Source of the DNA: an uncultured Piscirickettsiaceae bacterium
GTDB lineage: Bacteria > Pseudomonadota > Gammaproteobacteria > Methylococcales > Cycloclasticaceae
Assembly (NCBI GenBank): GCA_913061075.1
Contig: CAJXSK010000007.1
Coordinates: forward strand, 1 to 64,000
Reading direction: 5' to 3'
Length of the DNA stretch: 64,000 bases
Each line of letters opens with the position of its first letter. Within the stretch, counting starts at the first letter, position 1. Of the stretch, positions 6,946 to 24,979 are shown piece after piece. A program made the position numbers and the translations under genes. Under the pieces are notes generated by a model. That model searched no databases and was not told the origin of the DNA. It was given only the letters and a program-made list of their open reading frames with translations.

Positions 6946-9631
<2,686 letters not shown>

Positions 9632-9642
9632 CGAATACAACC

Positions 9643-9675
9643 AGCTCTCTTTAATTTACCTTATTAAAGAGAGCT
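9643..9675 (+). terminator. Hairpin after lpdA, terminator of sucAB-lpdA
   Basis: Two perfect 12-base arms (AGCTCTCTTTAA and TTAAAGAGAGCT) enclose a nine-base loop. The downstream tract is T-rich (TCCTTC, then TTCTTTCTTG) rather than a pure T run, so it is probably a Rho-independent terminator of moderate strength. Confidence 0.75.
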
Positions 9676-9995
9676 TCCTTCAAATTCTTTCTTGAATTTA
9701 AGTTAGTCAACTTTTTCCTTTCCATAATATTTTCACTATTTACACCCCCCTCAAGAAGCTAAAACATTGATTTAAATCGCCTATTTAAATCTAACTATTA
9801 CCTATCTACGCTAAGCCCTTAATACTCATACATATTATTTTGTAAATTTAACTTTACAAATATTTAAATATAGATTACTTTTAACAAAATTTTGACAATT
9901 TACTGGATATAAGAGCTTTAAGTAATTGATTTTAATATCTATCTAAATTAGTCAATATTTTGACCATTTTCTGTTAACTAAATAAGGCTTGGATA
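9676..9995. other. AT-rich intergenic region upstream of the ThDP/CS-like operon
   Basis: There are 320 bases between the lpdA hairpin and the next gene, very AT-rich and without an ORF. A perfect TTGACA lies near 9892-9897, but no well-spaced -10 follows it. A GTCAA-tatt-TTGAC inverted repeat at 9951-9964 ends 31 bases before the ATG. The length and composition fit a regulated promoter region for the operon beginning at 9996. Confidence 0.6.
9951..9964. promoter_or_regulatory. Inverted repeat GTCAATATTTTGAC, possible operator
   Basis: The palindrome GTCAA-tatt-TTGAC resembles the FleQ-type consensus GTCAATnnATTGAC with one mismatch. The surroundings are AT-rich, so chance is a real alternative. 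It could be a site for any dimeric regulator of the downstream operon. Confidence 0.3.
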
Positions 9996-11840
9996 ATGTC
10001 AACAGTCATTTCTGAAGTAATAAATAAAAATAATAAACAAACAGACACGTGTGACTTACTCTTAAACTACCTAGAACAACTTGGTGTTGAATATGTATTT
10101 GGGATACCTGGTGGCGCAATAGAACCACTTTACAACGCACTGGCAAGAAGTGAAAAACGTGGTGGCATAAGAGCCATTACAGCCAGGCACGAAACCGGAG
10201 CTGTTTTTATGGCCGATGCTTATGCCCGTAATACAGGAAAACTAGGCGTTTGCTGTGCGACTACTGGTCCTGGAGCAACCAACATGATTACGGGGATTGC
10301 ATCGTCGTATGAGAGCAATACCCCCCTACTTATCATCACACCTCAAACTAACCAAGTAAAAGAAGGGAAAAAAGCATTACAAGATTCAAGCGATACAGGT
10401 GTAAATATCCCTGGAATGCTTAAATTTTGCACACGCTATAATAGTGTCGTTTCTCATATTGAGCAATTCGAGCCAAAACTCATATCAGCTATATTAACTG
10501 CATTTAACACCCCACAAGGTCCTGCCCATTTAAGCATCCCGACTAACATTTTAAAAAGCACACTACCAATACCCTTTAAAAAAACAAACTTTGACAATAT
10601 AAATAAACGTCGTCACTTAATCGATAAATATGCAATTAAAAATTTAATTGAAGAAGTTTCTGAATCCAAAAAAATAGTTTTTGTTATTGGTCCAGGAGCA
10701 AAGAATTCAACGTCTTCTATATTAAGGGCAATCAACCAACTTAACGCGTTTTTCGTCACTACCCCAGATGCCAAAGGTTTTATAAACCCCTACCACCCTC
10801 AATATCGGGGAGTTATTGGTTTTGCTGGACACTCTAGTGCTGCAAAAATTCTTTGTGATGAGTCCGTAGACTCTGTAATCGCAATAGGTACAACAATGGG
10901 TGAATTCTCTAGTAACGCTTGGGATGAGAAAGCTTTACTTAATTCTAGACTAATTCATATTGATGATAATTACGAGAACCTTGCTAGAACCATGGTTGCT
11001 AAACTCCATGTTCAAGGGGATATAGAAACCATTATGGAAGAGTTTATAAAAGGCCTTACCACATCTTCCACAGACCGCATTGAAGCTCAATACAGCCAAT
11101 TTAAATCCATTATCGATAAAAGAGATTTGTTTTCTCAAAAACAACATCATAGTAAACAACTTTTGCATTATAAGCTTGATGACTGCGATAAAGTTAATGA
11201 CACTAGCCTTCCTATCAAACCTCAGTGGTTAATGAATCAGTTAACCAAATCATTCCCATCCAATTCACGTTATTTAGCCGACAATGGCAACAACGCAGCT
11301 TGGGCAATCCATTACTTAAACCCATTTGACCGGCGGCTTGGAAGCAGAAGAACTTCAAATCGTGATAATACTTGTCGCCGTAATATCGGCGCAGGAGCTT
11401 TCCAAGTTTGTGCCGAGTTTTGCTCTATGGGCTGGTCATTAGGCACGGCCATAGGAACAGCGCTAGCCCACCCTTCAGACCCAATAATTTGTATTGTTGG
11501 GGACGGCAGCTTTTTAATGTCTGGACTCGAAATTACCGTTGCTAAACAAGAAAACTTAAACGTCATATTCATAATAATGAACGATCAACACCTAGGGATG
11601 GTTAAGCATGGCCAACAGTTAAATCATGCTGCTGATATTGCAAATGAACTCCCCAACATTAGTTATGCACTGATGGCTGCTTCAATGGGTATTATGAGCC
11701 ACACTATTGAACACCCTGATGACTTTAAAAAACTTAATTTCAATACTATCTGCAATCGAAATGGGCCAACTTTACTTGATGTAAGAATAGATCCAAACGA
11801 AGTACCCCCTATTGCTACCCGAATTACGGGCATGAATTAA
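9996..11840 (+). CDS. Acetolactate-synthase-like ThDP-dependent enzyme, substrate unknown
   Basis: The 614-residue protein has the three-domain layout of acetolactate synthase / pyruvate oxidase family enzymes. The N-terminal PYR domain has the catalytic glutamate in TARHETGAVFMADAYAR (about E66) and TTGPGATN. A central domain follows, then a C-terminal PP domain with the ThDP/Mg motif starting VGDGSFLMSGLE (about 502) and ending IIMND. NDQHLGMVKHGQQ resembles acetolactate synthase. An unusual basic, Cys-containing insertion (RRLGSRRTSNRDNTCRRNIG) precedes the PP domain. Known relatives decarboxylate or ligate 2-oxo acids; the substrate cannot be read here. No ilvN-like small subunit is adjacent, which argues against branched-chain synthesis. 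The next gene starts immediately after its stop codon. Confidence 0.85.
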   Translation: MSTVISEVINKNNKQTDTCDLLLNYLEQLGVEYVFGIPGGAIEPLYNALARSEKRGGIRAITARHETGAVFMADAYARNTGKLGVCCATTGPGATNMITGIASSYESNTPLLIITPQTNQVKEGKKALQDSSDTGVNIPGMLKFCTRYNSVVSHIEQFEPKLISAILTAFNTPQGPAHLSIPTNILKSTLPIPFKKTNFDNINKRRHLIDKYAIKNLIEEVSESKKIVFVIGPGAKNSTSSILRAINQLNAFFVTTPDAKGFINPYHPQYRGVIGFAGHSSAAKILCDESVDSVIAIGTTMGEFSSNAWDEKALLNSRLIHIDDNYENLARTMVAKLHVQGDIETIMEEFIKGLTTSSTDRIEAQYSQFKSIIDKRDLFSQKQHHSKQLLHYKLDDCDKVNDTSLPIKPQWLMNQLTKSFPSNSRYLADNGNNAAWAIHYLNPFDRRLGSRRTSNRDNTCRRNIGAGAFQVCAEFCSMGWSLGTAIGTALAHPSDPIICIVGDGSFLMSGLEITVAKQENLNVIFIIMNDQHLGMVKHGQQLNHAADIANELPNISYALMAASMGIMSHTIEHPDDFKKLNFNTICNRNGPTLLDVRIDPNEVPPIATRITGMN

Positions 11841-12674
11841 ATGTCTGAAGAAAAAGAAAACATTACAACCAGCATCTGGCGTGAAGTGGCTGAGGAAGAC
11901 AACCCCTTTGTTGCCGAAAAAAGTTACTGCTCGGGTTATGACGTTTACGGGGACTTATTAGGCAACGTTACGTGGGCAGAATACATTTACCTACTGTTTA
12001 AACTGGAAAAACCTAAGCCATGGCAGTCCAAATTACTTGAAAACATCGCTGTCGCTATTGCAAACCCAGGACCACGCGACCTAAGTGTTCGAGGTGCAAT
12101 GAATGGTGGCGTTGGTGGTTCAACGGCTGCCTCGTGCTTAATGGCAGCATTAGCACCTGGCGCAGGTAAAAATGGTGGTGCCCGTGAGGTTTATCAAGTC
12201 ATGCGTTTATGGCAACAATGCCAATACGATTTATCACTTTGGCAACAAAAATTAACTGACTACGAAGACGAACAAACTGTAGAGGTGTGGCCTGCAAGCG
12301 AGCACTCACCCGGTTTTGATCCCTATGGTGCAAGTTGCTCTACGCCTGTCATTCAAACATTAAACCATTTAACGAGCATTTATTCTGAAGGCGCATTGGC
12401 ATACCTAGCTGCTAACCGCAACCAATTTGAACAATTTGCGGATTGCCCATTAGGGATGACTGGTGTTATTGCTGCTGCATTTACTGACTTAGACTTAAGC
12501 GACGAACAAGCCGAAATGTTGTTTTTATTGTTACGCTTACCGGGTGCCGCAGTGCATTCACTAGAACAGAAAAAACTAGGGTGGCGTAAATACCCTTTCT
12601 TTGGCGATGGATTAACGCTTACCAACGACCCAGGCCCAACACCTCTCAAATCCACTTTTCAGAAAACACTATGA
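11841..12674 (+). CDS. Citrate synthase / citryl-CoA lyase superfamily protein, first copy, atypical active site
   Basis: The 277-residue protein has the size of a stand-alone citryl-CoA lyase (about 260), not full citrate synthase (about 430). Family-like segments are LSVRGAMNGGVGGSTAASCL, APGAGKNGGAREV and a C-terminal LPGAAVHSLEQ that resembles the Gly-Leu-x-x-His-x-x-Glu-Gln end of citryl-CoA lyases. By eye, the HGGA histidine is replaced (KNGGA, about residue 110). The PGFGH motif reads SPGFDPYG (about 156-163), so two usual catalytic histidines are missing. It begins directly at the stop of the ThDP gene and overlaps the next gene by four bases. It may act as a heteromer with its neighbour or have another reaction. 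Confidence 0.72.
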   Translation: MSEEKENITTSIWREVAEEDNPFVAEKSYCSGYDVYGDLLGNVTWAEYIYLLFKLEKPKPWQSKLLENIAVAIANPGPRDLSVRGAMNGGVGGSTAASCLMAALAPGAGKNGGAREVYQVMRLWQQCQYDLSLWQQKLTDYEDEQTVEVWPASEHSPGFDPYGASCSTPVIQTLNHLTSIYSEGALAYLAANRNQFEQFADCPLGMTGVIAAAFTDLDLSDEQAEMLFLLLRLPGAAVHSLEQKKLGWRKYPFFGDGLTLTNDPGPTPLKSTFQKTL

Positions 12675-13471
12675 TAGGGCCAGATACATTAAAAAAAGCC
12701 GAAGATAATTGGCAAACCGAAATGGGGGCTTGGTTTGCAGGTGAACGGGTTGTTTTGCGTGGCAAAGATTTATTTACTGAGCTAAACGAACTTTCTTGGT
12801 TCAAATATCTTATGTTTGGAATTACTGGGAAAGTTTATTCCGACAAGCAAATGGCATTAATTGAAGCCATTTGGACATTAACTGTCAGTTACCCTGAGCC
12901 TAGACTCTGGAATAATAGAATTGCTGCTCTAACTGGCACTGCAAACTCAACCGGTATACTTGGAACATCTGCCGCCATAGCCGCTACTGAAGCCAGTATA
13001 TTTGGCAATCAAATTAATATCATAGCAATAGATTTTATAAAACGTGCTGCTTTATTGGATGGGTCTGACGGCAGCTTAGAAGACCTAGTTAAAAAGGAAA
13101 TGAAAAAGAACCGTATAATTCCAGGCTATGGGCGACCAATTGTTCAAAATGATGAACGTATTCAACCTTTAATTGATAAAGCACAAACGCTAAACCTTAC
13201 CGATGGTTTGCATTTTAAAGCGGCAAAAAATGTTGAAAAAACATTACTAAATAGCCGCTACCGTATGGTCATGAATGCAAGCGGCTTAGCGGCTGCATTA
13301 ATGGCTGATATTGGCATTAGCAATAGAGAATACTATTACTACACAATATTAGCTTTTTCGGCAGGCATTATTCCTTGTCATATTGATGCCGCCAATAAAA
13401 AGGAGGGTACTTTTTTTCCTTTACGCTGTAACCGATTAAATTATACGGGGCACGAAACAAGACACTGGTAA
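12671..13471 (+). CDS. Citrate synthase / citryl-CoA lyase superfamily protein, second copy, atypical active site
   Basis: The 266-residue protein shows the same fold family: an N-terminal VVLRGKDLFTELNELSWFKY segment, an Ala-rich GTSAAIAATEAS helix and IIPGYGRPIVQNDERIQPL (about 149-167), which aligns with PGFGH-x-x-x-DPR of citrate synthases. The histidine of that motif is arginine here and no HGGA motif is visible. The C terminus has SAGIIPCHIDAANKKEG. It overlaps the preceding paralogue by an ATGA, so equal synthesis and a hetero-oligomer are likely. Its true reaction is unknown. Confidence 0.68.
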   Translation: MIGPDTLKKAEDNWQTEMGAWFAGERVVLRGKDLFTELNELSWFKYLMFGITGKVYSDKQMALIEAIWTLTVSYPEPRLWNNRIAALTGTANSTGILGTSAAIAATEASIFGNQINIIAIDFIKRAALLDGSDGSLEDLVKKEMKKNRIIPGYGRPIVQNDERIQPLIDKAQTLNLTDGLHFKAAKNVEKTLLNSRYRMVMNASGLAAALMADIGISNREYYYYTILAFSAGIIPCHIDAANKKEGTFFPLRCNRLNYTGHETRHW

Positions 13472-13529
13472 TTTTAAAAATCACAACTAAGCTTATAAAA
13501 CGATAATAAAAAAATTTGTAGGGTTTAGT

Positions 13530-15611
13530 ATGAATAATATAGTGACTTGGTTATTTTTCTTTTGTGTACTTTCTTTAAATAGCTCGGCTTTTGCTTTCGA
13601 CGATGAAGACGCCCTAATTGAAGCCTATGGCGACGAGGAGTTTTTATACCTTGCCACCGGGCGCAAACAAACCGTTTCTCAAGCACCTGCAGTGGCCAGC
13701 ATTGTCTCAGCCAAAGCTATTCGGGAAATGGGCGCACGAGATATTGATGAAATCCTAGAAACCATTCCCGGCTTACACGTATCTTATGCCGCAGGTGGTT
13801 ATAGCCCTATATATCAAATCAGAGGAATATCATCTGACTTTAACCCGCAAGTACTCATGTTAATCAACGGATTACCAATTACGAATATCTTTGCTGGTAA
13901 CCGTTCTCAAGCCTGGGCTGGTATGCCAGTAGAAAACATCTCGAGAATTGAAGTTATTCGTGGCCCTGGATCAGCTCTGTATGGTGCAGATGCGTTTGCT
14001 GGGACAATTAACATCATCACTAAAAACCATACTGAAATCAACGGCATAGAGGTAGGCGCTTCGGCTGGCAGCTTTGATGAATATAGAGGTTGGTTACAAT
14101 ACAGTGGTGCATTAGCTGGCTGGAATACTGTGTTTTCAGGTCAAGTACTCGATACACACGGCCAACATGAAAAAGTAGATGCCGACTTTCAATCTTTGTT
14201 AGATGCTAATCCTTTATTAGCAACAAGCGCATCATTAGCGCCCAATGGTGTAAGTTTGGGTCGCCAATCATTAGATACCCGCATTGATATTTCAAAAGAT
14301 GAATGGCAGATTCGCCTAGGTTATCAAGGTAGACGAAATGTTGAAGTTGGTGCTGGTCTTTTTAGCACATTAGACAATGAAGGTGAAGCTGATGCTGATC
14401 GATACAATGCTGATATTACATACTTAACTAAAAACCTGATTGAAGATTGGGAGCTAAAAGCCCAATACAGTTTTTTTAATACTATCACCAAATCTGACCT
14501 AGTATTATTGCCCCCTGGCACTAATACGGGCGCTGGCATTTTCCCTAACGGTGTTATTGCTGAACCTGATGTGTACGAGCGCCATAATCGCATTGACCTC
14601 TCAGCATTTTATACTGGCATAAACAAACATGATATTCGTATTGGCGCAGGCTTCCATCACCAAGATCAATACAAAATTGAAGAAAAGAAAAATTTCATTA
14701 CCGCACTAACACCTTTTGGTGCTGTATTGGTGCCATTAGGAAGTGTTGTAGACGTAACTAACACCACACCGTTTAACCAAGAAGAAACCCGTAAAATTTA
14801 TTATGCTTTTGTGCAAGACGCATGGGACTTTGCACCCGATTGGACATTGACTGCTGGTTTACGATATGACGATTATTCAGATTTTGGCAGTACCGTTAAT
14901 CCCCGGTTAGCATTGGTTTGGCAAACAAGTTATCGCTTAACCAGTAAATTATTGTATGGCCGATCATTCAGAGCGCCCTCCTTCGCTGAACAATTTAATA
15001 TTAATAACCCTGTTGCGGTTGGTAACCCAAATTTAGACCCCGAGATTATCGATACCTACGAAATTGCTTTCGACTACAAAGCATCTGAAGATTTACGTTT
15101 AGGATTTAATGCTTTTTATTATGAAATGCAGGATATTATCCGCTTTAACCCCACCACTGCTAATAATACAGGCGAGCAAACAGGCCACGGTGTTGAGCTT
15201 GAAGTCAAATGGAAAGCAACTAAGCACTTATCAATCAACGGCAATTACGCTTATCAATCGTCTGAAGACGAAGCGACTAACAGTGACGCGGCTGATGCGC
15301 CTCAACAACAGCTCTACATTCGTGCCAATTACGCTCTAACACCTGTTTGGTCCATCAATTCACAATTAAACCATGTGATGGATAGACAGAGAGCCGCAGG
15401 CGACCTCCGCTCTGATATTGACGATTATAGTATTGTGGATATTACGTTACGCGCTAGAGAGATAGCACCAAATATTGAGCTGGCCGTATCGGCTCGTAAT
15501 GTGTTTGACGAAGATGCGTTTGAACCGTCACTAGCACCCGGTTTAATCCCTAATGACTTACCATTGGCTGGTAGAGGGTTTTTTGTTGAATTAAGAACAT
15601 CTTTTAACTAG
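13530..15611 (+). CDS. TonB-dependent outer membrane receptor
   Basis: The 693-residue protein has a signal peptide (MNNIVTWLFFFCVLSLNSS, then AFA) and a TonB-box/plug region. Plug signatures are IREMGARDIDEILETIPG, IRGISSDFNPQVLMLINGLP and RIEVIRGPGSALYGADAFAG, followed by a 22-strand-type barrel with NPNLDPEIIDTYEIAFDYK. The chain ends in VELRTSFN. It imports an unknown ligand; vitamin, siderophore or other organic molecules are possible. It follows the CS-like genes after 58 bases without a terminator, so it may share their transcript, and a periplasmic binding protein follows. Confidence 0.93.
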   Translation: MNNIVTWLFFFCVLSLNSSAFAFDDEDALIEAYGDEEFLYLATGRKQTVSQAPAVASIVSAKAIREMGARDIDEILETIPGLHVSYAAGGYSPIYQIRGISSDFNPQVLMLINGLPITNIFAGNRSQAWAGMPVENISRIEVIRGPGSALYGADAFAGTINIITKNHTEINGIEVGASAGSFDEYRGWLQYSGALAGWNTVFSGQVLDTHGQHEKVDADFQSLLDANPLLATSASLAPNGVSLGRQSLDTRIDISKDEWQIRLGYQGRRNVEVGAGLFSTLDNEGEADADRYNADITYLTKNLIEDWELKAQYSFFNTITKSDLVLLPPGTNTGAGIFPNGVIAEPDVYERHNRIDLSAFYTGINKHDIRIGAGFHHQDQYKIEEKKNFITALTPFGAVLVPLGSVVDVTNTTPFNQEETRKIYYAFVQDAWDFAPDWTLTAGLRYDDYSDFGSTVNPRLALVWQTSYRLTSKLLYGRSFRAPSFAEQFNINNPVAVGNPNLDPEIIDTYEIAFDYKASEDLRLGFNAFYYEMQDIIRFNPTTANNTGEQTGHGVELEVKWKATKHLSINGNYAYQSSEDEATNSDAADAPQQQLYIRANYALTPVWSINSQLNHVMDRQRAAGDLRSDIDDYSIVDITLRAREIAPNIELAVSARNVFDEDAFEPSLAPGLIPNDLPLAGRGFFVELRTSFN

Positions 15612-15666
15612 GCACAAGCCCCTCATGTTAATCCAACATATCTATCACGGAAGATAAGTCAGTTAT

Positions 15667-16620
15667 ATGCAAAAAAGAAAGCCTGTACATAAAACGTTAT
15701 TAATTATTCTCATAGCATTTTCTGCTTTAGCAGGTGATGTTCTGTCTGCGAAAGCTAACTATCATATTGCGGTTATTTACCCTGATGTTAGAAAGCCGTT
15801 TAATACTTTTTTTGAAAACATCACAGAAGGCATGAAGCTTCGTCAAGAAAGCAACATCACTATTTGGCCTGTACCTAAAACCGAAAGCCCCGAAGCGATG
15901 TCTACCTGGTTACAAAACACTAAACCAGATGCTGTGATTTTATTAGGCACTGAATTTAAACAATTTAATAAGCAATTAAAGGGTCCATTTAAACTCATCT
16001 ATGGGGCTTCATTCTTTTCTAGAAATCATTTTGAACAAGGTAAAGCAGGGATTTCGATTACCCCTGAGCCAAGTATTTTATTCAAACGATTAAAGAAAAT
16101 GGCCCCCCAAGTTACTGAAATAAATGTCGTTTATCATGAATTAACAAACGGCTGGTTGATAGACAGTGCGCAAGTAGTGGCTAAAGAATTAAATTTAAAA
16201 CTAAACAAACACCCTGTCGAAAACATTAAACAAGCGGCCTTAACCTACAAACAGATTATAGAAAACTCATCCTCTCCTACAAAAGCACTATGGCTACTAC
16301 AGCATGACCCTACGTTGGATGAAAAGTCACTTTTGCCTAGAATATTAGCGGATGCATGGGAACATGAAACCATTGTTTTTTCTAGTAACCCTAGACATGT
16401 CAAACGAGGCGCATTGTTTTCATCATTACCCGATAACAAACAACTGGGAAAAGATTTAGTACAAAAAGCCATTGATATATTACATGGGAAAAATAACAAC
16501 CTTGAACCGATGCGCTCAACTCTAATGGTTGCGAATAAAAGAACGGCCAAACATTTATCATTATCTGCAGACTATTTCAGTGAAGACGATTTTACTGTCA
16601 TTTACCCAAGGGAGAAATAG
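15667..16620 (+). CDS. ABC_sub_bind family periplasmic binding protein, orphan
   Basis: The 317-residue protein has a signal peptide (about residues 1-28, hydrophobic LLIILIAFSALAGDVLSA). The fold resembles the ABC_sub_bind (PF04392) group: NYHIAVIYPDVRKPFNTFFE, TKPDAVILLGTEFK, and ISITPEPSILFKRLKKMAPQ, which mirrors the P-x-x-x-x-x-x-L-K-x-x-x-P segment of the family. No permease or ATPase gene lies near. Its stop is three bases before the start of the membrane sensor kinase, so it probably presents a ligand to that kinase or to the TonB receptor pathway instead of feeding an ABC importer. Confidence 0.78.
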   Translation: MQKRKPVHKTLLIILIAFSALAGDVLSAKANYHIAVIYPDVRKPFNTFFENITEGMKLRQESNITIWPVPKTESPEAMSTWLQNTKPDAVILLGTEFKQFNKQLKGPFKLIYGASFFSRNHFEQGKAGISITPEPSILFKRLKKMAPQVTEINVVYHELTNGWLIDSAQVVAKELNLKLNKHPVENIKQAALTYKQIIENSSSPTKALWLLQHDPTLDEKSLLPRILADAWEHETIVFSSNPRHVKRGALFSSLPDNKQLGKDLVQKAIDILHGKNNNLEPMRSTLMVANKRTAKHLSLSADYFSEDDFTVIYPREK

Positions 16621-16623
16621 AGT

Positions 16624-19600
16624 ATGAATAACTCTCCTTTACATACATTTACCCATTCTACATTTAGGCGACTATTAGCATCTACCTACGTTGTAGGGAC
16701 CATTTTATTAATTATTATAGCCACGTTAGTAACGTCAAATTTATCCAGCCAATCGGTACAAGAAAGTTTAAATAAAACGGGCATCCAACTGGTTGGATCT
16801 TTTGCAGAAAACAGTCGTTTAGCACTGTTATATCAAAGTGAGGACGAAGCAAAACTCATTGTTGATTCGATGCTGGCCTTCCCGGATATATTACAAGCGG
16901 GTGTTTATGATGATAAAGGTAAACCCATTTATCTCAGTCATGAAGGCATTAAACGTTTGGCAATTTCCACGAAAGGTGAAAAGGAAAAGCTACTAGATAT
17001 CGAAACAGATAGCGAATGGATTTATAGCTCGCCTGTATTCACAACCTATGATAATGAAGACGAACCCTACTTTGACGACAGTTTTGAGCCTCAATTATTA
17101 GGTTATGTCCAATTAAAAGTTGGCAAAGGAACACTTGCTCAGCTTAAACAAGATTTCTACATCTATAATTTTCTCGTGATTGGTATATTAGCAATGATTG
17201 TGTTGTGGGTTCTTTTGATTGTAACAAGTAGGGTTACAAAACCTATTCATCACCTCGCTGAAAGTATGCAAACCGCCGCTAGCGAAGGTAAATTTATAGA
17301 AGCAAATAGAGGAACCACTCAAGATATCGTTAGAATGGAACGGGCATTCAACAACTTGATGAAAATTCTTCAAAAACGCCAATCTGAATTACAAGTAACT
17401 CGAGATCTTGCACTAGAGGCCGCCAAAGTAAAGGGTGAATTTGCAGCTAACGTTAGTCATGAATTGCGAACCCCTCTGAATGGCATTTCGGGCATGTTAG
17501 AGCTTTTATCTGAAATGAGTTTATCAGTTCAACAACAGCAATACATTGAAGTTGCTTCATCTAGCGCTGATTCATTATTAGAATTGATTGATGATGTTTT
17601 AGACTTTTCAGTTTACGATCAAAAAGATATTAACTTTAATAATAAATCATTTAATATTCAGAAAATACTTGAAGAATTTACATCTTTATTGAGCCCACAA
17701 GCACATCAAAAAAATATCTCTATCGCTTATTTTATTGATGACGACGTCCCTATTAATATAATAAGTGACAGCGCAAGATTACAACAAATACTCCATAATT
17801 TACTTGGAAATGCCATTAAATTCACGCAGGAAGGTGATGTCAGTATTTCTGTTTCAAAACATGCATCTGACTCAGATGACTTCTCTCTTTTATTTGAAAT
17901 TACTGATACGGGCATTGGCATTCCAATCGAAGCTCAAGAAAAAGTGTTCGAAGCATTCTCTCAAGCTGATAGCACGACAACACGCGAATATGGTGGCACT
18001 GGGCTTGGATTAGCCATCTGTAAACAACTAGTCACATTGTTCGGTGGCGAGATTGGAGTTAACAGTTCTGTTGAAGCGGGGAGTACCTTCTGGTTTACCA
18101 TTCAAACTGAAATTGATGATGAAGCTAACGCATCTTTAATTGCGCTTCAAAACATAGAGCCTGTTAATCAACGTATTTTATATGTTGGCGATAACGACCT
18201 ATGTAAACGCTTTATGGCTAAACATCTTAACAACTTATCATATACAGCTGATTTTGTTAGTAACGGCAACGCAGCCCTACGTAAAGCACGTGAAGAAGTT
18301 GCCAACAAGACACCTTACGATTTTATTATTATCGATGAGTTGCGTATAGGACTAAAACAACAGGCATTAGCAAAAGCAATTAACGCTGATAAAACACTTA
18401 ATGCTTCAAATGTTGTGCTGACTATAAAAAACAGCACCAATAATGCTGAACAGACCACTTTAGAGAATGAGCTCTACTCTCTGACAAAACCTGTTAGAGA
18501 AGGTGACTTGCTCACTCTTCTTACTCAAGATAATCATAAGCTACAAGCACCACAACAGAATGATTTTAATCAAAAACAACCATCTCAGCCAGAATTTGAT
18601 GACGCTCGAATACTTGTTGTAGAAGACAACCGTGCAAACCAACTGGTTGCCAAAGCAATGCTCGAACGTTTCAAATGTCACATTTCTTTAACAAACAATG
18701 GAAAAGAAGCTATTGAAATCGCCTCTCGTTCAACCTTCGATTTGATATTTATGGATTGCCAAATGCCAGAAATGGATGGTTATGAAGCAACGTATCAATT
18801 ACGAAAACTTGAAGAAAAAGGCAACCATACAACAATCGTTGCTATGACTGCTAATAAACAAGAAGGTGACAGAGAAAAATGCTTAGCGGTTGGAATGGAT
18901 GACTTTTTGTCTAAACCTCTTAAACTTGAGAAATTAGCAACCATACTGACTAAATGGCTCAGCAAAAGCACAAATGACATTTCGATTGTAAGCCAAGAAG
19001 AAAGTAATGTCGTAAACAATTCTGTGATTGATGAGGAAATATACACCTACTTGGAAGAAACCCTTGGTGGGGACATACAAACTGTTTTAGAGCTCTTTAT
19101 TGAAGATACGCCTGGGTATTTAACACAATTAGAATATGGTCTTAAAAATACTGATTTAACAGTTTTAAGCTCAGCAGCACATACGCTAAAAAGCAGTGCT
19201 GCTAACTTTGGCGCTACACAATTAAGCAATGCATGCGAAGCAATGGAACGAGCCTGTTCATACAACGATACTGACTCATTACTTTTAGTTTATAAACGAA
19301 TTGATTTTGAGACAGAACAAGTCATCAAAGCCGTTGAATTTAAACTAAACCCAGACAAAAACCTAAAGCGTGATAGTGATCGTAATAGTTCCGTTATGGA
19401 TCCTGATACGAAAAAAATATTAGTTATAGACGATGATCGAACAGCTCGGTTTACATTAAAGAAAACACTAGAAAAACAAGGTTATTTAGTTGATGAAGCG
19501 ATTAGTGGGGACCAGGCGCTTCAATATTGTGAACGAATCCAACCTGACCTCATTATTGTAGACGCGATGATGCCTGGTATAGACGGGTTTGAAACGTGCG

Positions 19601-21108
19601 AAAAAATAACGCATAGATTTGGAAAAGGCACAGTTCCTATCATTATGATCACTGCGCTTGATAATGAAGCATCAATCAACAAAGCGTTTGAAGTAGGGTC
19701 TTCAGACTATATATCTAAACCCATTAACTTTTCTCTATTCAAACACCGTGTTGAGCGACTGTTGTCTGCCAAACATGCAGAAAGTCAAATATCTGACTTG
19801 GCGTACAAGGACCCGTTAACCGGGCTAATTAACAGAAATTTATTTTCCAAACAAACGGCTGAAGTACTTTCTGCTCATGAGAGAAAAGATAAAGTGTTAG
19901 CACTCATGTTTCTTGATTTAAATCGTTTCAAACTGGTTAACGATTCATATGGCCATGAAGCTGGTGATTTATTACTTAAAGTCGTGTCTGAACGTTTAAC
20001 GAGAAGCGTCCGAACTAATGACATTGTTTCTCGTTTTGGTGGTGATGAGTTTGTTATCGCACTGACCGATATTAAATCAACAACCAACATTGAAAGTTTA
20101 GCAAAAAAGATACAATCGAATTTAACCAGACCTTTTGTTTTTTTAGGTAAAGAAATGCATATTGGAACAAGTATTGGGATTAGCGTTTCATCAACCACAC
20201 AAAAAACTAATATTAGCACGCTCATTAAGAATGCTGATATTGCCATGTATAAGTCAAAAGAAAATAAAAAGCCGTACGTTTTTTACGACCAAGCCATGGA
20301 AGATAGTGTTAACAATCGCTTAACCATTGAAAATGACTTAAGGGGTGCCATTGAACGAGATGAACTTAAAGTTTTTTATCAACCTCAATTTAATATAGCC
20401 ACAGGTGAATTGGTTGGAATGGAAGCATTAATTCGTTGGCTTCATCCTGAAAAAGGGCTTATTCCACCGGACAATTTTATTGGATTATCAGAAGAAACAG
20501 GGCAAATACATTTAATCGGCGAATGGGTATTAGAAACAGCGTGTAATTGCCTAAAAGGATGGCTTGACCAAGGCGCACAACCTATCACCGTTGCTGTTAA
20601 CTTATCGGCCCACCAATTAGGTGACGATAAAATCGTAGACAAAGTTACTTCCATTGTCGAAAGAACTGAATTACCCAAGCACTTACTTGAGTTGGAAATT
20701 ACCGAAGGTTCTGTTATGAACAACGAAGAAGCGGTGATAGAAAAACTAGGTATTTTTAAGAAAATGGGTGTTAAATTAGCTATTGACGATTTTGGCACCG
20801 GTTACTCTTCATTGAGTTACCTTAAACGTTTCCCCATTAATTTACTTAAAATTGATCGGTCTTTTGTGATGAACAGCCTAACGGATAGAGTAGATGCAGA
20901 TATCATTAGAACCATCATCATCTTGGCACACAGTATGGGTGTAGACGTCATCGCCGAAGGCATTGAGACCAAAGAACAATGTGACTTGCTTGAAAGTCTT
21001 AATTGTGACTTAGTACAAGGCTATATGTTCGGAAAACCCATGCCTGCAGAAGATTTTGAAGAAATGTTTTTCCCACAATTGAAAAAAAATATAACACGTA
21101 CAATTTGA
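16624..21108 (+). CDS. Hybrid sensor kinase fused to GGDEF and EAL domains (CHASE8-HAMP-HisKA-HATPase-REC-REC-HPt-REC-GGDEF-EAL)
   Basis: This 1494-residue protein combines a complete phosphorelay with c-di-GMP enzymes. Membrane segments lie near 16-38 and 182-204 around a CHASE8-like periplasmic domain, followed by HAMP. The kinase has [11 protein letters not shown] (phospho-His about 279) and an ATPase domain with DTGIGIP and [13 protein letters not shown]1 (about 518-640) is degenerate. REC2 has phospho-Asp in [10 protein letters not shown] (about 711), HPt has [11 protein letters not shown] (about 853), and REC3 has [10 protein letters not shown] (about 980). The GGDEF domain has RFGGDEF (about 1138), and the EAL domain has MEALIRW (about 1267) and DDFGTGYSS. 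Both enzyme motifs look intact. It starts three bases after the binding-protein gene, suggesting that ligand binding controls c-di-GMP. Confidence 0.93.
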
Positions 21109-21146
21109 TACAATAAGGTCTTACTTTAAGCAACCTCTTAAATAAA

Positions 21147-22670
21147 ATGACCCTAATTAAGCAGAACGATCTTATTGAAAGCGTCGCAGCGGCATTCCAA
21201 TTTATTTCTTACTATCATCCTAAAGATTACATCCAAGCACTTGGCAAAGCCTATGACCTAGAAGAGTCACCTGCGGCCAAAGATGCAATGGCTCAGATTC
21301 TTTTAAATTCTCGCATGTGTGCAATGGACCACCGCCCTATTTGCCAAGATACTGGCATTGCTAATCTATTTTTAGAGGTTGGTATGGATGTGCAATGGGA
21401 CGCTACCATGAGCCTTGAAGACATGTGCAACGAAGGCGTTAGACGTGCATACAAACACCCAGATAATGTATTAAGAGCCTCTATTGTCTCTGACCCATTA
21501 GGCGCACGTAAAAACACCGGAGACAACACACCTGCTGTTGTCCATATGAAGATTGTTCCTGGTAATAGCGTTAGCGTTCATGTTGCAGCTAAAGGTGGCG
21601 GTTCTGAAAACAAATCAAAATTCGTCATGCTAAACCCAAGTGACAGCCTCGTTGACTGGGTGCTTAAAACTGTTCCTACTATGGGTGCTGGCTGGTGCCC
21701 ACCCGGTATTTTAGGTATTGGTGTTGGCGGCACGGCTGAAATGGCCATGAAGCTGGCTAAAGAGTCATTGATGCAACACATCGACATTCAAGAACTAAAA
21801 GATCGTGGCCCAAATGATCGCCCTGAAGAACTTCGCTTAGAACTATACGAAAAGGTCAATGCATTAGGTATTGGTGCTCAAGGCCTTGGTGGGCTCACCA
21901 CTGTATTAGATGTAAAAATCAACCATATGCCAACACATGCTGCATCGCTTCCTGTTGCCATGATCCCAAACTGTGCAGCAACAAGGCACGCACACTTTGT
22001 GTTAGATGGTTCAGGCCCCTCATTTATTGAGCCACCAAAACTTGAAGACTGGCCAGATGTTGCATGGGCACCTGATGCACAAACTAAGCACGTTAATCTA
22101 GACACGGTAACCGAACAAGAAGCTCAAGCTTGGCAACCGGGCGACAGATTACTGCTTAGTGGACACATGCTAACAGGGCGAGATGCCGCACATAAACGCA
22201 TTGCCGATATGTTTGCCAAAGGTGAGCCATTACCCGACGGCGTAGATTTTAAAAATCGCTTTATTTACTATGTTGGCCCTGTTGATCCAGTTGAAGGAGA
22301 AGTGGTCGGCCCAGCTGGCCCTACTACAGCTACTCGCATGGATAAATTCACTGAAATGATGCTTGATAAAACCGGCTTGCTTGGCATGATTGGTAAGGCT
22401 GAACGTGGCCCTACGGGTATCGAAGCGATTAAAAAACACAAAGCCACGTATTTAATGGCTGTTGGTGGTGCTGCTTATTTAGTATCCAAAGCAATTAAAG
22501 GCTCAAAAGTCATTGCCTTTGAAGACCTTGGAATGGAAGCCATTCGCGAGTTTTATGTTGAAGACATGCCCGTTACTGTGGCGGTGGATTCTAAAGGAGA
22601 GTCTGTTCACAAAACCGGCCCCGCCTTATGGCAGTCTAAAATTGCTGGCATTCCAATCGTCGCTGGATAG
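21147..22670 (+). CDS. fumA: Class I (iron-sulfur) fumarate hydratase
   Basis: Class I fumarases interconvert fumarate and malate in the TCA cycle using an oxygen-sensitive [4Fe-4S] cluster. The 507-residue protein carries both halves in one chain, as in FumA/FumB. The N-terminal alpha domain has the cluster-type segment RPICQDTGIANLF, plus GAGWCPPGILGIGVGG and MIPNCAATRHAHF. The C-terminal beta domain has LLLSGHMLTGRDAAHKRI, GPTTATRMDKF and MLDKTGLLGMIGKAERG. It begins 38 bases after the hybrid kinase and ends at a bidirectional terminator. In function it fits sucAB and mdh in this window. Confidence 0.96.
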   Translation: MTLIKQNDLIESVAAAFQFISYYHPKDYIQALGKAYDLEESPAAKDAMAQILLNSRMCAMDHRPICQDTGIANLFLEVGMDVQWDATMSLEDMCNEGVRRAYKHPDNVLRASIVSDPLGARKNTGDNTPAVVHMKIVPGNSVSVHVAAKGGGSENKSKFVMLNPSDSLVDWVLKTVPTMGAGWCPPGILGIGVGGTAEMAMKLAKESLMQHIDIQELKDRGPNDRPEELRLELYEKVNALGIGAQGLGGLTTVLDVKINHMPTHAASLPVAMIPNCAATRHAHFVLDGSGPSFIEPPKLEDWPDVAWAPDAQTKHVNLDTVTEQEAQAWQPGDRLLLSGHMLTGRDAAHKRIADMFAKGEPLPDGVDFKNRFIYYVGPVDPVEGEVVGPAGPTTATRMDKFTEMMLDKTGLLGMIGKAERGPTGIEAIKKHKATYLMAVGGAAYLVSKAIKGSKVIAFEDLGMEAIREFYVEDMPVTVAVDSKGESVHKTGPALWQSKIAGIPIVAG

Positions 22671-22687
22671 ATATCGTTGTCATAAAA

Positions 22688-22716
22688 AAGCCAAGCATAG
22701 AAGCTTGGCTTTTTTT
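22688..22716. terminator. Bidirectional Rho-independent terminator between fumA and parC
   Basis: Nine-base arms AAGCCAAGC (22688-22696) and GCTTGGCTT (22703-22711) with a six-base loop are followed by seven T on the plus strand and preceded by six A. The hairpin therefore terminates fumA rightward and parC leftward. Confidence 0.92.
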
Positions 22717-22735
22717 ATGTCACGCATTCAAATCA

Positions 22736-24979
22736 TTAATCTTTAGTCACCAACTCAATACCATCCGGATTTTGATAGCCTCTTGGCAACTTTGTACCAC
22801 GTTGCGCCCTTTTACCTCTGTATGCGTCCAAATCAGAGAGTTTTAAATTAATATGGCGTTTACCCGCATTAATACGAATAGCTTGCCCTTCACTCACTAC
22901 ACAGAATCCCATCATGCAATCATCACCCGATTTTAAATCTTTACCCGGCACCTGAATCAACTTATTCCCCTTACCTCGGCTAAGTTCGGGCACTGCAGAA
23001 GCAGGAAAAATCAACAAGCGGCCCTGTTTGCTGATAATGGCGACTAATCCATCATTCGATTCAAATAATGCAGGAGAAAGCAGCTTAGCCCCTTGAGGTA
23101 ATGATATCAAAGCCTTGCCTGCTTTATTTTTTGTTTGCAAGCCACTGATGTTTGTTACGAAACCATATCCAGCATCAGATGCCAACATAATCAACTCATC
23201 TTTACCTGCTATAACGTTTGTAAACATTGCACCGGCTGGTGGCTTCAAACTACCCGTTATTGGCTCGCCTTGCCCACGTGCCGACGGTAAACCATGAACG
23301 GGTAAATTATAAACTCTACCCGTTGAATCTAGAAAATAGACCAAACTATTACTGCGGCCTTTTGCAGAGGCTAAATATTCATCGCCCGACCTAAACGTTA
23401 AGCTTTTCGGGTCAATATCATGGCCTTTAGCCGCACGCACCCAACCTTTTTGAGAAATAACAATCGTCATTGGTTCATTCGGAATCAAGGCACGCTCGTC
23501 CAAAGCCTGCGCTGATTGGCGGCTAACAATTGGTGAGCGCCTAGCGTCACCATACAGTTCAGCATCCGCCTGAATTTCATTTTTTACGAGTGTTCTTAAC
23601 CGTTGTTTAGAATTAAGTATTTTCTCTAAATAATCACGTTCTTTTGCTAATTCATCTTGTTCCGCACGAATTTTAAATTCTTCTAATTTCGCTAATTGAC
23701 GTAATTTTATTTCAAGAATCGCATGCGCCTGAACATCGGTGATGCCGAAACGTACCATCATCGCTTCTTTTGGCTTTTCTTCTTCGCGGATAATCTTGAT
23801 TACTTCATCAATATTCAAATACGCAATTAACAACCCATCTAAAATATGTAAACGATCATTAACTTTATCTAATCGATAATCTAAGCGTTTCCTAACTGTT
23901 TCTATACGGTAACTTAGCCATTCAGTTAATAATACTTTTAAGTTTTTAACTTGCGGTTTTCCACTCAAGCCAATTACGTTGAAGTTAACACGATAGGTAC
24001 GTTCTAAATCTGTGGTAGCGAAAAGGTGCGACATTAATTGTTCAATATCGACACGATTCGAACGGGGAACAATCACTAAGCGTGTTGGGTTTTCGTGATC
24101 AGATTCATCTCGCAAATCTTCAACAATAGGTAATTTCTTAGCGCGCATTTGTGCCGCTATTTGTTCTAATACTTTTGCGCCAGATACTTGATATGGCAAT
24201 GCGGTAACAATAATTTGCCCTTGTTCCATCTCATATCGAGCACGGGCACGTAGGCTGCCCATACCCTTTTCGTACATTGACCTTATATCTTCACGCGAGG
24301 TTATGACTTCTGCTTCTGTCGGAAAATCTGGGCCTTTAATATGCTCCATTAAGGTATCAATATCCGCTTTTGGCTCATCTAACAAGCGAATACAAGCAGT
24401 GGCCACTTCATTCAAATTATGCGGTGGAATATCCGTCGACATACCCACAGCAATACCTGTTACTCCATTCAATAATAAGTTTGGTAAACGGGCTGGAAGC
24501 AAAACAGGCTCTTGCAAGGTGCCATCAAAGTTATCTGTCCAATCAACCGTACCCAACCCCAGCTCACTCAACAAACTGTTTGAATACGGTGCAAGGCGAG
24601 ATTCGGTATAACGCATCGCCGCGAATGATTTTGGATCATCTGGTGAACCCCAGTTGCCCTGCCCATCAACTAATGGATAACGGTAAGCAAAGGGTTGTGC
24701 CATATGCACCATTGCTTCATAACAGGCTGTATCCCCATGCGGATGAAACTTACCTAATACATCCCCCACCGTTCTTGCGGACTTTTTAAACTTGGCGTTG
24801 TTTGACAAACCTAATTCAGACATCGCGTACACGATACGACGCTGTACAGGTTTTAAGCCATCAGCAATATGTGGTAACGCACGGTCCAAAATCACGTACA
24901 TGGAATAATCCAAATAGGCTTTTTCAGTAAACGTTTTTAGCGGCAGCGTTTCAATATTTTCAAACTGTGTTGTACTCAT
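22736..24979 (-). CDS. parC: DNA topoisomerase IV subunit A
   Basis: ParC is the cutting subunit of topoisomerase IV, which decatenates daughter chromosomes. The 747-residue protein has the start [20 protein letters not shown], the active-site tyrosine in AMRYTESRL, and the quinolone-region motif [17 protein letters not shown]. That motif has Thr where E. coli ParC has Ser80. The C-terminal beta-pinwheel is shorter than that of GyrA, with the segment [10 protein letters not shown]-like [15 protein letters not shown] at the end. parE lies nine bases upstream in the same operon. Confidence 0.97.

Follow-up and report, generated by a model that had tools for sequence, protein, structure and literature searches.

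The uncultured Piscirickettsiaceae bacterium (Cycloclasticaceae) of assembly GCA_913061075.1 carries, on contig CAJXSK010000007.1, three closely packed genes encoding a thiamine diphosphate (ThDP)-dependent enzyme and two proteins of citrate synthase (CS) type, here named CS-A and CS-B. The stretch analysed, referred to as the window, comprises positions 1-64,000 of the forward strand. The trio is half of a larger unit: the three downstream genes, encoding a TonB-dependent outer-membrane receptor (TBDT), a periplasmic binding protein (PBP) and a hybrid sensor kinase, belong with it, and the six genes are very probably one unit. The presence of a receptor, a binding protein and a kinase gives it the look of a locus that both makes and senses a molecule, more than that of a simple metabolic operon. 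In the reading preferred here, which we hold to be about evenly balanced between right and wrong, the product of the trio is a small molecule of acyloin type, which the TBDT/PBP/kinase half senses, with cyclic di-GMP (c-di-GMP) as an output.

The six-gene block spans positions 9996-21108, in the order ThDP – CS-A – CS-B – TBDT – PBP – kinase (Table 1). The first-pass annotation had described a three-gene operon; its open reading frames (ORFs) were confirmed, with a junction of 0 bases between the ThDP and CS-A genes and an overlap of 4 bases between CS-A and CS-B. The extent given to this operon was too short, as the TBDT, PBP and sensor kinase genes downstream had been missed. The absence of an ilvN-like subunit, also claimed, holds for the six block genes, and no export or ABC import gene was found among these same six. 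The PBP gene is flanked by the TBDT and kinase genes, and not by transporter genes.

A species-level genome scan yielded at least 234 confirmed related places, of which the best 80 were taken as loci; these best 80 include Marinobacter, Hahella, Collimonas, Gallionella, Dechloromonas, Geobacter, Porticoccaceae and SAR92 records. The ORF caller was crude, with some gene starts wrong, and left nine of the 80 loci unanchored. The anchored set of 72 loci (71 fetched plus the window) is the basis of the adjacency and neighbour-family counts, from which those nine are absent, and the family-presence count covers all 80. CS-A and CS-B were adjacent on one strand in 70 of the 72 anchored loci, which bears out the tight co-linearity first proposed, and the 4-base overlap was present in 35 of those 70. 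Among the 49 loci with full flanks, the ThDP gene and CS-B were each present in 49, the TBDT in 48, the PBP in 38 and a YfiR-like protein in 8 (PBP or YfiR in 46), and a signalling protein was detected in 47 with a loose score and in 46 with a strict score, at which locus L050 drops out. A short-chain dehydrogenase/reductase (SDR) was present in 6 of the 49 and an O-methyltransferase in 2. As controls, 14 trio-less stretches of 4-21 kb had no TBDT (0/14), no PBP (0/14) and one strict signalling match (1/14, the control taken from 22-43 kb of the window).

The gene order is variable. In the Marinobacter locus L094, the order is YfiR, CHASE8 kinase, receiver-like protein, receiver-GGDEF-EAL protein, ThDP, CS-A and CS-B, with the TBDT gene facing these, and the YfiR-like protein takes the place of the PBP in Marinobacter loci. 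In the Geobacter-type loci L086 and L102, the kinases, PBP, TBDT and ThDP genes are on one strand and CS-A/CS-B are on the other. The most diverged arrangements came from searching 398 genomes, drawn evenly from the phylum, with a CS-A profile. This search gave 2 close and 8 deep members; 30 of the 40 matching genomes had weak matches (E >1e-12), which were taken as ordinary lyases and not counted. Four of the deep genomes, all of one family, have the order TBDT-CS-A-CS-B-ThDP-PBP-HK (histidine kinase), and their best matches in the set share 32-34% identity for CS-A and 48-50% for ThDP; for L172 the PF04392, TBDT and hybrid kinase assignments were confirmed by Pfam. The other four deep genomes, from two families, carry the trio beside a large Ser/Thr-kinase-type protein, and no TBDT or PBP was present in the stretch. 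In L174 this protein has kinase, AAA, GAF, HisKA_3 and HATPase domains by Pfam, and the proteins of L173 and L176 are full-length relatives, 51-58% identical to that of L174 or to each other. In L173, L174 and L176 a response regulator comes next; that of L174, the one examined, is LuxR-type by Pfam. CS-A of L174 and L176 was not called by the ORF caller and was placed there by the profile search.

Table 1. Features of the six-gene block and its upstream interval (window coordinates)
Feature	Position	Strand	Remarks
ThDP enzyme gene	9996..11840	+	614 aa; three TPP-enzyme Pfam domains above cut-off
CS-A, predicted citryl-CoA-lyase-fold protein without catalytic triad	11841..12674	+	277 aa
CS-B, predicted citryl-CoA-lyase fold, Arg at catalytic His site (GYGRP...DERI)	12671..13471	+	266 aa
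TBDT, plug and barrel	13530..15611	+	domain search
Periplasmic ABC_sub_bind protein (PBP), PF04392	15667..16620	+	domain search
Hybrid sensor kinase: HisKA, HATPase, receiver domains, Hpt, GGDEF, EAL	16624..21108	+	1494 residues
Perfect 13-bp inverted repeat, lpd/ThDP-gene interval	9643..9675	.	possible boundary hairpin

The joint presence of these genes was assessed in 101 genomes, namely the bacterium's own genome and 100 relatives; the genus label Cycloclasticus is used because the closest named relatives, among the matches listed, were mostly Cycloclasticus assemblies. CS-A was present in 20 of the 101 genomes and CS-B in exactly those 20, and a partial or complete ThDP gene was found at all 20 CS-A/CS-B loci, so that the parting of the three genes across genomes, named in the first-pass annotation as a ground for refutation, was not seen. 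Of 18 Cycloclasticus genomes, 9 had CS-A, CS-B and the PBP together, and the other 9 had none of the three (completeness ≥98% in 5 and 58-80% in 4). The ORFs upstream of the block were read as, presumably, sucA-sucB-lpd, and a fumarase gene lies downstream. The lpd/fumarase site was compared in 7 of the 9 trio-less genomes (G002 and G006 were left out), and the whole block was missing from it in 7/7, since lpd runs straight into fumarase with a gap of 20-150 bp. The best whole-genome matches in the nine trio-less genomes were 26-31% identical for the ThDP enzyme and 21-36% for the TBDT; judged by sequence, these are other members of the two families.

The ThDP enzyme is probably a 2-oxo acid carboligase of the CybE type, as judged from its conserved residues and profile scores. 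The catalytic Glu (Glu47 site), the Gln110 site and the Mg-binding Asp428 site were each invariant in 63/63 proteins, and the catalytic Glu was also kept in 8/8 further ThDP proteins. Two positions that we take to be functional in acetohydroxyacid synthase (AHAS) are altered: the Trp464 site is Gly in 63/63, and the Arg276 site is Trp (26), Phe (13), Val (12), Leu (3) or Ala (3), with six unprinted (n=63; P0001 has Phe). The NCBIfam acetolactate synthase model scored 280 bits against a cut-off of 538, and a plain ilv-type acetolactate synthase was rejected on this score, on the Gly at the Trp464 site and on the loss of Arg276. The profile built from the 63 proteins scored BbmA at 491 and CsmA at 423 bits, compared with 342 for the best acetolactate synthase (AHAS I), and a GFAGH motif is common to the ThDP enzyme and BbmA. 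The other TPP_enzyme_N gene of this genome, a 587-aa frame on contig C17, adjoins an ORF that we recognised as presumably ilvC-like.

CS-A had no Pfam match and scored 45 bits against 212 with the NCBIfam citryl-CoA lyase model; CS-B scored 23.2 bits against 27 with Pfam Citrate_synt and 55 against 212 with citryl-CoA lyase. At E 0.01, Citrate_synt matched 37 of 56 CS-A and 30 of 57 CS-B members. The AlphaFold models (pLDDT 90.6 for CS-A and 89.3 for CS-B) aligned with ATP-citrate lyase/citryl-CoA lyase at Z 20.1 (rmsd 6.1 over 250 residues) for CS-A and Z 22.9 (rmsd 2.9 over 232 residues) for CS-B, and both proteins are thus predicted to have the citryl-CoA lyase fold. His, His and Asp, which we assume to be the catalytic set of citrate synthase and citryl-CoA lyase, are kept in the three annotated lyases of the alignment. 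In CS-A, the first His is present in 1/56, the loop of the second His is deleted in 56/56 and the Asp is replaced by Ser or Thr in 56/56; in CS-B, the first His is present in 0/57, the second is Arg in 57/57 and the Asp is present in 0/57. Nine further CS-B proteins all have the Arg as well, and neither they nor seven further CS-A proteins have the Asp. The deep CS-A proteins of L173, L175 and L177 retain His at one of the two His positions. Three lyase-like Cycloclasticus paralogues keep the second His only, with no first His and no Asp, and such losses are therefore not unique to the CS pair. Invariant polar residues are H155, H239 and E242 in the 56 CS-A proteins and R155, D161, E162 and R163 in the 57 CS-B proteins.

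An ordinary citryl-CoA lyase or citrate synthase was rejected for both proteins, the catalytic His/His/Asp having gone from each. The function first suggested for the trio, a carboligation or decarboxylation of 2-oxo acids coupled to a (retro-)Claisen step, therefore survives in part: carboligation fits the residues and profile of the ThDP enzyme, and a Claisen step of the ordinary citryl-CoA-lyase kind does not fit the CS pair. We lean, with some reserve, to the view that the CS pair acts in the same synthesis as the ThDP enzyme. A different lyase-like paralogue was seen at L153-L155 (ORFs of 259-260 aa, three Cycloclasticus); it keeps the His of GFGH and not the first His or the Asp, its neighbours read as acyl-CoA dehydrogenase and thiolase (2/3), and it is possibly another repurposed citryl-CoA-lyase family.

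Some parts of the block change fast inside the genus. Median pairwise identity was 91.7 for fumarase, 88.3 for sucA and 87.4 for lpd, and 80.4 for CS-A, 77.5 for the TBDT, 72.7 for the ThDP enzyme, 59.1 for CS-B and 47.1 for the PBP. Distances for the ThDP enzyme and the PBP tracked those of sucA (rho 0.82 and 0.83, 6 genomes), whereas those of CS-B did not (rho -0.51, 6 genomes) and ran opposite to those of the ThDP enzyme (rho -0.65). Between L164 and L167, the ThDP enzymes are 85%, the CS-A proteins 87% and the CS-B proteins 54% identical. This discordant history of CS-B looks like allele exchange. In genome G020, CS-B is split between L147 and L148, the 5' fragment adjoining CS-A and the remaining ~217 residues lying ~517 kb away; this genome has no PBP match, and the arrangement suggests that the locus was broken by a rearrangement. 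Assembly G001 contains two CS-B alleles that are 58% identical, at L169 (G001:C88) and L164 (G001:C2); the TBDT of the short contig L169 is 91% identical to that of L146, from another genome, and a strain mixture or binning error is possible.

On the basis of homology and the conserved active-site residues, the ThDP enzyme would couple a pair of 2-oxo acids, releasing CO2, to yield an alpha-hydroxy-beta-keto acid of acyloin type. The second step is the weakest. Here CS-A and CS-B, which always occur as a pair, would assemble into a heteromer of citryl-CoA lyase fold; this would use a rebuilt site, or only bind CoA esters, to process or release the product, perhaps by joining it to an acyl-CoA in the manner of CybF in furanolide pathways. 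The SDR and O-methyltransferase genes of a few loci would tailor the product. The domains and synteny suggest that the TBDT would then carry the molecule into the periplasm, where the PBP, or the YfiR-like protein in Marinobacter, would bind it and present it to the sensor kinase. A phosphorelay would finally set the c-di-GMP level in this genome, the relevant domains being present in the kinase, and in the variant without TBDT and PBP it would act on gene expression through the response regulator. Whether the product of the trio is sensed by the linked kinase is, in our estimation, a matter on which the evidence falls equally to either side.

Several points weigh against this proposal. With the CS triad lost, the second step lacks a mechanism, a TBDT is not usually required for small signals, and the signal product, the enzyme activity and the ligand binding are all predictions. 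Three of the loci depart from the pattern: L050 has a TBDT and no PBP/YfiR or strict signalling match, L077 has a TBDT only and no signalling match, and L061 has no TBDT, PBP/YfiR or signalling match, with a protein weakly similar to the large Ser/Thr-kinase-type proteins upstream. In the deep locus L175, a stop-ended ORF of 653 aa matches only the N-terminal part of the kinase-type protein, and no histidine-kinase part was seen. The loci are related by descent, so the counts are not independent. A matched synthase and receptor pair might be expected to covary, and CS-B and PBP divergence did not (rho -0.03, 7 Cycloclasticus genomes); co-diversification of synthase and receptor inside Cycloclasticus was for this reason set aside as unsupported.

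The sensing half was also found alone. A TBDT-PBP-kinase module without the trio was present in 6/6 fetched relatives that lack CS-A and have strong PBP matches (E <1e-40), and G067 has the full set together with a second TBDT-PBP-kinase module elsewhere in the genome. Such modules are as expected of receivers and are equally compatible with a general sensing module. A catabolic role, with an external compound detected through the TBDT and PBP and then degraded by the trio, the ThDP enzyme serving as a lyase or decarboxylase, is unlikely. In its favour, nutrient uptake is the usual function of TBDT and PBP families, the nearest NCBIfam model of the PBP is TrpX (24.5 bits, cut-off 390), Cycloclasticus degrades aromatics, and amino-acid-dehydrogenase-like and E1/E2 genes adjoin six other loci. 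Against this, the block has no transporter or degradation gene, the two halves are separable (the sensing half without the trio, and the trio without TBDT and PBP), and outside the six families no gene family occurred in more than 11 of the 72 anchored loci, so that the loci share no constant transporter or catabolic gene. The E2-family gene found with E1 genes near the trio in the six loci, like the sucAB-lpd genes that recur beside it only at Cycloclasticus-type loci in the locus set, is only suggestive of a link with 2-oxoglutarate dehydrogenase. At L040 (2147-8060), the genes beside the trio are a dehydrogenase (best model the Trp dehydrogenase ScyB, below cut-off), E1 alpha/beta, E2 and an omega-aminotransferase, and the first four of these families recur in six loci.

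It is more doubtful still that the CS pair is non-catalytic, binding CoA or 2-oxo acids and standing in for an IlvN-like subunit as regulator or scaffold of the ThDP enzyme. The three catalytic positions are lost in both proteins, the Asp also in all the further ones, and the block has no small subunit, whereas the many invariant polar residues suggest a working site; this arrangement would be compatible with a sensed product if the ThDP product itself were the signal. It is improbable that the locus is a metallophore system, the trio producing a hydroxy acid that chelates metal, the TBDT taking the metal complex back up and the kinase sensing that complex. Alpha-hydroxy acids chelate metals and the TBDT is similar to NCBIfam models of heme receptors (160 bits) and siderophore receptors (149.9 bits), but it falls below the cut-off of every one of the 25 models listed of 32 matched (223.5 for the siderophore model), no Fur-box-like site with ≤3 mismatches occurs in the window (a weak test with an E. 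coli-type consensus), and further points against it are the lack of export and ABC import genes, the occurrence of the sensing half by itself and the variant that has neither TBDT nor PBP. Phage or plasmid cargo was rejected, as CS-A had no match among 50,697 phage records and its five plasmid matches reached 24-31% identity (four annotated as citryl-CoA lyases), and anti-phage defence was rejected since no PADLOC match was obtained for ThDP, CS-A, CS-B or PBP.

A riboswitch was rejected, no Rfam match being obtained across 8000-22800, and terminator-like sites around the block were not more frequent than in shuffled sequence. L065, which has the trio, and the trio-less sensing modules L138 and L140 share the neighbour families f224, f225 and f226. 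At L144 (7360-12828), two TBDT genes lie after a PBP gene, the later one sharing 78% identity with the TBDT gene of L053, and the usual kinase does not adjoin them.

If a synthesised and sensed product is indeed encoded here, the locus would represent an unrecognised and widespread signalling system, with an addition to signal chemistry and a second life for the citrate synthase fold. The stronger claim, that it is a new class of bacterial signal made by a ThDP carboligase and a CS-fold heteromer with a rebuilt site, in which Arg stands at the catalytic His position of CS-B, and read through TBDT, PBP and kinase, is tentative, and we would sooner doubt it than accept it; were it true, cells with the sensing half and no synthase would be listeners and the swapped CS-B alleles would be dialects. 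Even without signalling, two families nearest to "citryl-CoA lyase" and one nearest to "acetolactate synthase" would be misnamed by those models.

The first-pass annotation knew of no described pathway with this trio, and no description was found in the open-access literature searched, subscription journals being largely outside that search. The closest known chemistry is that of CybE, BbmA and CsmA, the alpha-hydroxy-beta-keto acid synthases of furanolide pathways. BbmA and CsmA were the best-scoring solved relatives of the ThDP profile, Gly at the AHAS Trp464 site is a further shared feature, and the GFAGH motif is as in BbmA. In a 2025 paper (PMC12395478), CsmA and a second enzyme, spelled BpmA and taken here as BbmA, are called homologues of CybE, which also works with a CoA ligase. 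CybF, the partner of CybE, is described as a 3-oxoacyl-ACP synthase (PMC8777810). Unlike CybE, the ThDP enzyme is accompanied here by two proteins of predicted citryl-CoA-lyase fold and a sensing module. Neither a CybF-like ketosynthase nor a CoA ligase was found among the six block genes, the minor neighbour families being mostly unnamed and the genome elsewhere unsearched. The fold of the CS pair is common to citryl-CoA lyase and the C-terminal module of ATP-citrate lyase, whereas the catalytic His/His/Asp of those enzymes is absent from CS-A and CS-B.

Make-and-sense loci are a known kind, and to our knowledge none has this composition. As in LuxP-LuxQ (AI-2) and CqsA-CqsS/LqsA-LqsS, a synthase is combined with a periplasmic binding protein and/or a hybrid kinase, and the PBP gene adjoins the hybrid sensor kinase gene in a LuxP-LuxQ-type arrangement. 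Unlike in those systems, the synthase is ThDP-dependent with a CS-fold pair, the PBP is not assigned to the LuxP family (PF04392 was the sole match at E 0.001), a TBDT is included in the unit, and the output is GGDEF/EAL. The YfiR-like protein that replaces the PBP in Marinobacter loci recalls the YfiR-type modules of c-di-GMP sensing; unlike in those modules, it is linked here to a biosynthetic trio and a histidine kinase.

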